Notes under the pieces: generated by a model
The model's database searches: none
Told to the model about the DNA's origin: nothing
What the model saw: the letters and a program-made list of their open reading frames with translations, nothing else
In this document: one piece after another, positions 12,447 to 15,223 of the stretch
How positions within the stretch are numbered: position 1 is the first letter of the stretch
Layout of the letters: every line of letters starts with the position of its first letter
Program-made: the position numbers and the translations under genes
Assembly: GCA_019911765.1 (NCBI GenBank)
Contig: JAIOJU010000088.1
Location: 1-33,084 of the forward strand
Reading direction: 5' to 3'
Length of the DNA: 33,084 nt
DNA from: Thiobacillus sp.
GTDB lineage: Bacteria; Pseudomonadota; Gammaproteobacteria; Burkholderiales; Thiobacillaceae

Positions 12447-13649
12447 ATGGCAAGCATTACTTTCCGCGAAGTAGAAGGCAGCAGCCTGAAATACTGGATG
12501 CTGTTCGGGGTCCTCGGCCTGTTCGTGCTGTTTGGCGCACTGGCCTGGAATCATATGCACCACTACGGCCACGTTGTGACCGGCATGGACAACCAGATTG
12601 TCTGGGGCCTGCCGCACGTATTCGCGGTGTTCCTGATTGTGGCCGCGTCGGGTGCGCTGAACGTGGCCTCGATTGCATCGGTTTTCAACAAGCCGATGTA
12701 CAAACCCCTGGCGCCCCTGTCGGCCATCCTGGCGCTGGCCTTGATGCTGGGCGGCTTGCTGGTCCTGGTGCTTGATCTTGGCCGCTCCGACCGGCTGATC
12801 GTTGCCATGACGCATTTCAACTTCAAGTCGATGTTTACCTGGAACGTGTTCCTGTATTCGGGTTTCTTCGGTCTGGTGGGTGCGTACCTGTGGACGATGC
12901 TGGATCGCAACGTCAAGCCCTACTCCAAGACGGCGGGTACGGCTGCGTTTATCTGGCGCTTGATCCTGACGACCGGTACGGGATCCCTCTTTGGCTTTCT
13001 GATTGCGCGTGAGTTGTATGGCACAGCGATGCTGGCACCGATGTTCATCATCATGTCGTTTGCTTATGGCCTGGCCATTTACCTGATGGTCCTGGCCGCA
13101 GCGTACAGCTGGACCGGGCGCACCTTGGGAGACGCAGTCATGATGCGGCTGAAAAGCCTGCTGGCCGTCTTTGTGGCAGCAGTGTTGTACTTTGTTGTCG
13201 TGCACCATATGACCAACCTGTACTTCACCAAGTACCATGCGGTTGAGGCCTTTATTTTGCGCGACGGTGGAATCTTCACCACGCTGTTCTGGGTGGGGCA
13301 GATCCTCATCGGTTGCGTCGCACCGCTGGTGATTTTGCTGAGCAGCCTGGGCAAACAGCGCACATGGATCATGATTGCCTGCGTGTTGATCGTTCTGGGC
13401 GGCATTGCACAGATGTACGTCACGATCATCGGTGCCCAGGCATTTCCGCTGGACATGTTCCCAGGGCTGAAAGAGACAAGCAGCTTCTTTGACGGCGAAG
13501 TGCACAGCTATGCACCCAGCGTGCCTGAGTTCTTCCTGGGCCTGGGTGGCGTAGCAATCGCACTACTGGTGACAACTTTTGCGGTGAAGTTGCTGCGCCT
13601 GCTGCCAGCCAGCCTGGACGACGCGACGGTCGCCAAACTGGAACATTGA
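12447..13649 (+). CDS. dsrP: Membrane protein DsrP (NrfD/HybB family)
   Basis: 400 aa, about 10 hydrophobic helices; immediately downstream of dsrO. Confidence 0.95.
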   Translation: MASITFREVEGSSLKYWMLFGVLGLFVLFGALAWNHMHHYGHVVTGMDNQIVWGLPHVFAVFLIVAASGALNVASIASVFNKPMYKPLAPLSAILALALMLGGLLVLVLDLGRSDRLIVAMTHFNFKSMFTWNVFLYSGFFGLVGAYLWTMLDRNVKPYSKTAGTAAFIWRLILTTGTGSLFGFLIARELYGTAMLAPMFIIMSFAYGLAIYLMVLAAAYSWTGRTLGDAVMMRLKSLLAVFVAAVLYFVVVHHMTNLYFTKYHAVEAFILRDGGIFTTLFWVGQILIGCVAPLVILLSSLGKQRTWIMIACVLIVLGGIAQMYVTIIGAQAFPLDMFPGLKETSSFFDGEVHSYAPSVPEFFLGLGGVAIALLVTTFAVKLLRLLPASLDDATVAKLEH

Positions 13650-13696
13650 TGCATAACCTGCCAGGCGCCTGCCTGGCAGGGGATCGTTCGGCATGA
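13649..13696 (+). other. Candidate short ORF 1 (MHNLPGACLAGDRSA*), TGATG overlap with the dsrP stop
   Basis: ATG at 13649 overlaps the dsrP TGA (13647-13649); its own TGA (13694-13696) overlaps the next ATG in ATGA. Not in the supplied ORF track because it is short. Confidence 0.4.
13657..13680. repeat. Perfect 10-bp inverted repeat cctgccaggc-gcct-gcctggcagg
   Basis: Starts 8 nt after the dsrP stop; no following T-run. Confidence 0.7.
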
Positions 13697-13788
13697 ACCA
13701 GCAAGCCCCTTCGAACGACGCATCTAAACGTGGGGCTCAAATGTCCCACAAGGGGACCCCGACTTTCTGTGAGGTTAAAACCCCATGA
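13693..13788 (+). other. Candidate short ORF 2 (MNQQAPSNDASKRGAQMSHKGTPTFCEVKTP*)
   Basis: ATG 13693; TGA 13786-13788 overlaps the next ATG (13785) in ATGA. Confidence 0.4.
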
Positions 13789-13858
13789 AAAGTCGTATGC
13801 CCGACAAGCGGACTCCGACTTTCTATGAGGATGAATCCTCATGAAAGATCGTATGCCC
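13755..13858 (+). repeat. Imperfect 56-bp tandem duplication of the dsrN translation-initiation region
   Basis: gaccccgactttctgtgaggttaaaaccccatgaaaagtcgtatgccc (from 13755) and gactccgactttctatgaggatgaatcctcatgaaagatcgtatgccc (from 13811), exact 56-bp offset, about 9 differences over 48 nt. Confidence 0.8.
13785..13844 (+). other. Candidate short ORF 3 (MKSRMPDKRTPTFYEDESS*), ATGA overlap with the dsrN start
   Basis: ATG 13785; TGA 13842-13844 overlaps the dsrN ATG 13841-13843; N-terminus resembles DsrN (MKDRMP). Confidence 0.45.
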
Positions 13859-15223
13859 CGCGTCTTTATTTCTGCTGCGCATAAATCCTCCGGCAAGACC
13901 ACGCTGACGCTCGGTCTGTGTGCTGCGCTGCATGCGCGCGGCCATGCGGTGCAGCCGTTCAAGAAGGGGCCGGATTACATCGACCCCCTGTGGCTGGGAA
14001 TGGCGGCCAGGCGATCCTGCTACAACCTCGATTTTCACATGATGCAGCGCGACGAAATCGCACAGCATTTCGTACGCAAGGCGAGTACTGCGCGGATCAG
14101 CCTGATCGAAGGCAACAAGGGCTTGTACGACGGGCTGGATCTGGACGGCAGCAATAGCAACGCGGCACTCGCCAAACTGCTGGGCGCCCCTGTGGTGCTG
14201 GTGATCGATGCACGCGGCATGACGCGTGGCGTGGCCCCGCTGATACTGGGATACCAGGCGTTTGATCCGGATATCCGGATCGCTGGTGTCATTCTCAACA
14301 ATATGGGGGGTAGTCGCCATGAATCGAAGCTGCGTGCGGTGATCGAGCATTACACCGATGTAGAAGTCATCGGTGCGGTGCAACACGATACGAGCATGCA
14401 GATTGCCGAACGCCACCTGGGGCTGGTGCCGGCCAATGAACAACAGGCCGCACTGGAACGGATTCACCATGTGGGGGCACGGGTCGCGGATCAGGTTGAT
14501 CTGCACCGCCTGCTGGCGATTGCGGACAGTGTGGCGCCTTTAAGCGTTACGTTGCCGGCAGCGTTCCCGGCGCCAGCCGAACGGGTTCGTGTCGGCCTCG
14601 CACACGACCAGGCCTTTGGTTTTTATTACAGCGAAGACCTGGAGAACCTGCGTGCCGCCAATGTCGAACTGGTCGAAATTGACACGCTGCATGAACAGGT
14701 GTTGCCAAACCTGGATGGGCTGATCATCGGCGGCGGTTTTCCGGAAATGTTCATGGAACAGCTGGAGGCCAACACATCATTGCGTTCCAGTATCCGGCAG
14801 GCAGTTGAGGGTGGCCTGCCAACCTATGCTGAATGCGGAGGGCTGATGTACCTGTCGCGCAGCCTCTGCTGGCAGGGGAAGACGCGACAGATGGTCGGCG
14901 TTGTTCCGGGCGATACAGTGATGCATGAGCGGCCGGTGGGACGTGGTTATGCGCGTTTGCAGCCGACGGGAGATGATCATTGGCAGGAGCCGGATAACAT
15001 TCCCGCTCATGAATTTCATTATTCAAGCTTGGAAAACCTGCCCAGCGACTCCATATACGCTTATCAGGTGACGCGTGGTCATGGCATTGATGGCATGCAT
15101 GATGGCTATCAAAGCCATCAGCTGCTTGCGGGTTATGCGCATCGACGCGGGTCCGGCGCGCAAGGCTGGATCACGCCATTTTTAAATCAGGTGCGTGCGC
15201 ATAAGCTGCGTGCTGCCACTTAA
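13841..15223 (+). CDS. dsrN: DsrN, glutamine amidotransferase-class siroheme amidase (cobyrinic acid a,c-diamide synthase/CbiA-like)
   Basis: MPRVFISAAHKSSGKTTLTLGLCAAL P-loop; FKKGPDYIDPLWL; amidotransferase nucleophile region YAECGGLMYLSRSL. Confidence 0.95.
   Translation: MKDRMPRVFISAAHKSSGKTTLTLGLCAALHARGHAVQPFKKGPDYIDPLWLGMAARRSCYNLDFHMMQRDEIAQHFVRKASTARISLIEGNKGLYDGLDLDGSNSNAALAKLLGAPVVLVIDARGMTRGVAPLILGYQAFDPDIRIAGVILNNMGGSRHESKLRAVIEHYTDVEVIGAVQHDTSMQIAERHLGLVPANEQQAALERIHHVGARVADQVDLHRLLAIADSVAPLSVTLPAAFPAPAERVRVGLAHDQAFGFYYSEDLENLRAANVELVEIDTLHEQVLPNLDGLIIGGGFPEMFMEQLEANTSLRSSIRQAVEGGLPTYAECGGLMYLSRSLCWQGKTRQMVGVVPGDTVMHERPVGRGYARLQPTGDDHWQEPDNIPAHEFHYSSLENLPSDSIYAYQVTRGHGIDGMHDGYQSHQLLAGYAHRRGSGAQGWITPFLNQVRAHKLRAAT

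Follow-up and report, generated by a model that had tools for sequence, protein, structure and literature searches.

A dispersed palindromic repeat probably split dsrN in Thiobacillus and may have supplied the signal for its translational restart

The three tiny open reading frames that lie between dsrP and dsrN in the window (the whole analysed stretch of Thiobacillus sp. DNA, 33,084 nt) are best explained as the trace of an insertion. A dispersed palindromic repeat split dsrN, and the gene would be rescued by termination-reinitiation at the ATGA of the repeat; we assign a probability of roughly 0.85 to this account as a whole. That the insertion explains the three ORFs is very nearly certain, and for reinitiation as the main route of dsrN translation, a deduction from sequence, the odds are about even. 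We count as firm the origin and the site of the insertion, its absence in relatives, the structure of the unit, the frame break, and the fact that the last ATGA and the body of dsrN are conserved. Apparently three micro-genes in a sulfur-oxidation operon are thereby replaced by a traceable repeat-insertion event.

All features of the locus are on the forward strand. The upstream gene dsrP (12447-13649), whose stop codon TGA was placed at 13647-13649 by ORF re-derivation, codes for an NrfD-like membrane subunit (PF03916, E=7e-50). dsrN (13841-15223) codes for a CobB/CbiA-type amidase with matches to the CbiA and GATase_3 domains; its ATG at 13841 stems from the repeat, and its body is homologous to the relatives from 13853 onwards. 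An Fe-S_biosyn (dsrR-like) gene and a siroheme synthase gene follow on the 3' side. The gap is filled by ORF1 (13649-13696, MHNLPGACLAGDRSA and a stop), ORF2 (13693-13788, closing with SHKGTPTFCEVKTP and a stop) and ORF3 (13785-13844, MKSRMPDKRTPTFYEDESS and a stop). According to the original prediction, dsrP, the three ORFs and dsrN are joined by stop/start overlaps alone, and this is correct: frames, peptides and overlaps were all re-derived. Among 20,000 dinucleotide shuffles of the gap, 82 (0.4%) yielded a complete chain of this kind. The arrangement is locally unusual, though picked post hoc.

The origin of ORF2 becomes clear from the relatives. A full-length match to dsrN was found in 53 Thiobacillus genomes; the open frame comprises at least 470 codons in 44 of them and 461-462 codons in nine, and these nine are exactly the carriers of the repeat (the genome of the window and eight others). 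In the repeat-free genomes the gap measures about 85-99 nt, and the start that corresponds to that of ORF2 is in frame with dsrN, nearly always as an ATG 42-51 nt 5' of the body. The first part of ORF2 (13693-13740, codons MNQQAPSNDASKRGAQ) is the original 5' end of dsrN, and the frame of the dsrN body is open here in 44/44 repeat-free genomes. Several of these have AGG, CGG or ACA at 13853, which leaves them dependent on the upstream start.

The first ~20 codons of native dsrN include a hairpin. In the window, its left arm (CGTGGGGC, 13729-13736) and its right arm (GCCCCGCG, 13855-13862) can form a stem of 8 bp. All 36 distinct aligned native sequences of the form CGCGGGGC-loop-GCCCCGCG pair at all eight positions, and three compensatory double changes were found, one of which alters the protein (RGA to REA, in G074). 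The compensated stems read GGGAC/GTCCC in G068, GGGGT/ACCCC in G027 and CGAGG/CCTCG in G074. Two further genomes possess a similar hairpin with a different loop, and none of the native type was evident in three other families inspected. The uninterrupted form is present in L006, L238, L219 and others. The repeat occupies the hairpin loop, some 16 codons into the gene, and in the carriers pairing of the outer arms is still possible at 7-8 of the 8 positions.

The inserted sequence consists of two tandem copies of 56 nt. Positions 13741-13796 and 13797-13852 are 80% identical; in element coordinates, the first copy occupies 13744-13799 (covariance model score 49.0 bits, E=3e-10) and the second 13800-13855 (57.8 bits, E=9e-13). 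The second copy holds a GAGG at 13827-13830, the sequence TCATGA and the new ATG of dsrN. When 60 relatives were searched with the region, the orthologous dsr locus was accompanied by many unrelated places that match only around 13798-13859. In a DNA-level search, 38 of 56 genomes from the genus contain the repeat, and the covariance model detects 21 copies in the genome of the window. In a sample from the order, the model finds it in 15 of 250 genomes and 8 of 120 genera; named records with the core motif include Thiobacillus, Sulfuricella, Sulfuriferula and a Methylotenera bin, among others. The searchable literature contained nothing relevant on the repeat sequence or on palindromic repeats of Thiobacillus.

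A gapless alignment of 68 dispersed units over 54 nt yielded a consensus with a 4-bp hairpin (CCCC-ACAA-GGGG), which is followed by a 14-bp hairpin that ends in TCGTATG. The stems covary: 93.3% of the cells in the alignment are paired, 118 cells are changed on both sides, and such double-sided changes affect 13 of the 18 stem pairs. The covariation score is 0.341, compared with 0.154 for shuffled alignments and 0.038-0.107 for slid partners. The repeat also accounts for the motif TPTF[C/Y]E that ORF2 and ORF3 have in common. The motif itself is real; it does not indicate small genes and is the translated ACTCCGACTTTC stretch of the two repeat copies.

Comparison of filled and empty sites revealed a clean gain of the unit CCCC...TATG after a target NNG. 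Wherever this could be told in filled/empty pairs (a PFOR-like gene, the CCGGACGCATCCGG site and a site resembling a CGTC-type REP), no target-site duplication of at least 3 nt was found. A preference of the element for palindromic targets is weak (8 sites; p=0.008 with dsrN, 0.07 without it). Exactly 54 nt, i.e. 18 codons, is the length of 90 of the 108 dispersed units, and 44 of the 94 arrays outside dsrN lie inside ORFs predicted by a simple gene finder. At the dsrN site, 10 of the 14 units are 56 nt long and none has 54 nt. Because most dsrN copies have 56 instead of 54 nt, the frame is shifted and the TCATGA junction is created. A repeat family of mostly 18 codons can thus land harmlessly in genes, and at one site it has gained a frame-breaking form that would also supply a restart signal.

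In the window, the two tandem 56-nt copies lie in the loop of the native hairpin and have shifted the frame of dsrN, and the old start now yields a peptide of 31 amino acids (ORF2). Each copy ends with a stop codon that overlaps a start codon (ATGA), the last of which reopens dsrN at 13841. For the translation of the split gene, the following course is plausible. Ribosomes would enter at the old dsrN start, read into the repeat and open the hairpin that hides the GAGG and the new ATG. At each copy they would terminate at the TGA and resume at the ATG that overlaps it, and would finally arrive in dsrN. If this coupling holds true, a mobile hairpin can disrupt a gene and simultaneously supply the means of its translational repair.

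The junctions in the carriers are consistent with this mechanism. The last junction before dsrN is ATGA in 9/9 carriers, as TCATGA or CCATGA. Reading that begins at the native start arrives at dsrN in frame in 9/9 carriers after one or two terminations, with restart ATGs located between 4 nt back and 6 nt forward of the stop; three carriers differ at the first break, where a TAA precedes the next ATG by 4-6 nt without overlapping it. Because the nine carriers are not independent of one another, such counts overstate the significance; moreover, with the dsrN ATG fixed, dsrN is also reached in frame by 9-60% of the shuffles, depending on the genome. When 107 dispersed units were inserted computationally into the empty dsrN site, 72 gave an in-frame peptide, 29 a dead end, one an out-of-frame product and five a stop/restart, compared to stop/restart from all 13 of the units actually located at dsrN. 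A GAGG located 10 nt 5' of the new start, within the arm of the hairpin, occurs in 10 of 13 dsrN units versus 1 of 107 dispersed ones; it is missing in two of the nine carriers (G030 and G061). For two carriers that share the insertion, dN is 0.014 and dS is 0.125 in dsrN. These values imply that dsrN is still under purifying selection and that the gene matters after the split.

It is possible, if on balance not probable, that the insertion simply provided dsrN with a new start at which ribosomes bind directly, either at 13841 by means of the GAGG or at 13853, and that ORFs 1-3 are by-products. The location of the GAGG 5' of the new ATG is compatible with such independent initiation, and in three genomes of other families (L212-L214) the start of dsrN is the codon that corresponds to 13853. 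However, folding predicts that in most carriers both the GAGG and the new ATG are base-paired in a strong hairpin, and the non-start codons at 13853 in several Thiobacillus genomes argue against this position as the start of the genus there. Furthermore, all nine carriers retain the native start together with an in-frame route from it to dsrN, and for this reason the data moderately favour reinitiation over direct initiation at the new ATG.

An extension of the insertion and termination-reinitiation account is speculative and rather unlikely to hold in full. It assumes that the palindrome was domesticated at dsrN as a hairpin-gated termination-reinitiation device that drives this gene and was kept or spread across several Thiobacillus species, other copies staying frame-neutral at 54 nt. 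The dsrN copies would then have evolved the two extra nucleotides, the GAGG in the hairpin arm and the TCATGA after the gene had been split. With respect to the history of the site, the distribution of the carriers over the dsrP+dsrN tree is patchy (8 changes, no fewer than with shuffled labels), and the units at dsrN tend to be mutually nearest, with weak margins. A single ancient gain followed by precise losses, transfer of the locus and repeated insertion at a hot spot are all possible histories. The insertion is flanked by direct repeats ATGCCC, which would allow a precise loss.

A programmed switch is conceivable in principle, in which the repeat-built hairpins together with ORF2 and ORF3 act as an attenuator or leader-peptide device that regulates dsrN upon a signal. 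Short upstream ORFs are present, a hairpin covers the GAGG and the ATG, and a conserved hairpin existed already in the native 5' coding region. Nevertheless, regulation of this type is improbable: ORF2 and ORF3 lack conserved regulatory codons, their peptides are derived from the repeat, and no Rfam family scored above its gathering threshold in 13400-14100.

The interpretation put forward originally, an evolved translational relay that leads from dsrP through three small coding ORFs to dsrN, is highly improbable in spite of the exact overlaps in the window and their low frequency in shuffled gaps. Passage by reinitiation is plausible, but it would begin at ORF2 and not at dsrP. A TGATG at the dsrP stop exists in only 5 of 33 genomes and is joined to the next start in only three of them, where this junction is complete; a relay linked to dsrP was rejected, since the dsrP-ORF1 junction is not conserved. 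The idea of three small coding genes was likewise discarded, because ORF2 is the displaced N-terminus of dsrN, and the tail of ORF2 and ORF3 are sequence of a dispersed repeat. In 44 of the 53 genomes ORF3 is absent and ORF2 is fused to dsrN. Of the expected conservation of the junctions across relatives, only the last ATGA stood, namely among the repeat carriers; most relatives do not have any chain of ORFs. An assembly or sequencing error as the cause of the frameshifts can practically be dismissed, as the same site is filled in nine separate genomes with related yet different sequences, even though the genome of the window is fragmented (292 contigs).

ORF1 is a spurious ORF that spans a native spacer hairpin (CCTGCCAGGC....GCCTGGCAGG, 13657-13680). 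This hairpin is a strong 10-bp inverted repeat between dsrP and the native dsrN start; similar inverted repeats occupy the same place in many relatives, and it is possibly a processing or coupling element.

The Thiobacillus repeat resembles several known classes of elements. Rickettsia palindromic elements (RPE) and other intragenic REPs are short dispersed palindromes, many of which are read in frame inside ORFs as extra peptide (PMC3733652). Like these, the Thiobacillus repeat is dispersed, palindromic, present in multiple copies and found in frame inside open ORFs, with a unit length divisible by three. Unlike RPE, to which it is likened by description, it is a two-hairpin unit from another host group (Thiobacillus, Sulfuricella and kin), and its copies in dsrN mostly break the frame rather than add peptide. 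With REP/BIME elements and their RAYT (Y1) transposases it shares covarying hairpins, tens of copies and arrays. However, across 56 genomes a Y1 transposase gene accompanies the repeat in 26/38 genomes and is found in 14/18 genomes without it (p=0.54), which is no association, and a GTAG or CGTC tag is absent at the unit ends, the consensus of the 68-copy alignment ending in CCCC.. and ..TATG. Mobilisation by RAYT was rejected on the grounds of the missing association with Y1_Tnp. MITEs are similar in being small, non-autonomous and dispersed, but differ in that several empty/filled pairs of the Thiobacillus repeat show no target-site duplication.

Short stop/start overlaps of the ATGA/TGATG type support termination-reinitiation (PMC6728339, PMC10666635). 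dsrN agrees with such systems in its conserved ATGA overlap and in start signals that are predicted to be hidden in a hairpin at the restart. The difference is that the overlap was delivered by a mobile repeat within one gene and does not connect two standing genes; the coupling itself is putative. For the annotation of such genomes it should be noted that the start of dsrN, the small ORFs and the TPTF peptides are derived from the repeat.

Several copies elsewhere illustrate how the repeat is accommodated. In a gene which we presume, by eye and from its sequence, to be pyruvate:ferredoxin oxidoreductase-like (PFOR-like), the 54-nt repeat was found in frame at two sites ~40 codons apart in different species (L054, L067, L071, L075, L078, L080, L105). 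The gene stays open, with 1163-1173 codons in the longer loci, and empty counterparts exist. In the genome of the window itself, a copy at ~1502-1553 of L036 is apparently in frame near the N-terminus of an FAD-monooxygenase-like gene. In L099, L061 and L062, copies are nested within another palindrome that resembles a CGTC-type REP (GTCATCGCGAGGAGCGAAGCGACGTGGCGATCC-like). Variant units of 72-73 nt, in which a second small hairpin is nested in the main loop, are located in L095 (2153-2213) and L047 (1433-1493).
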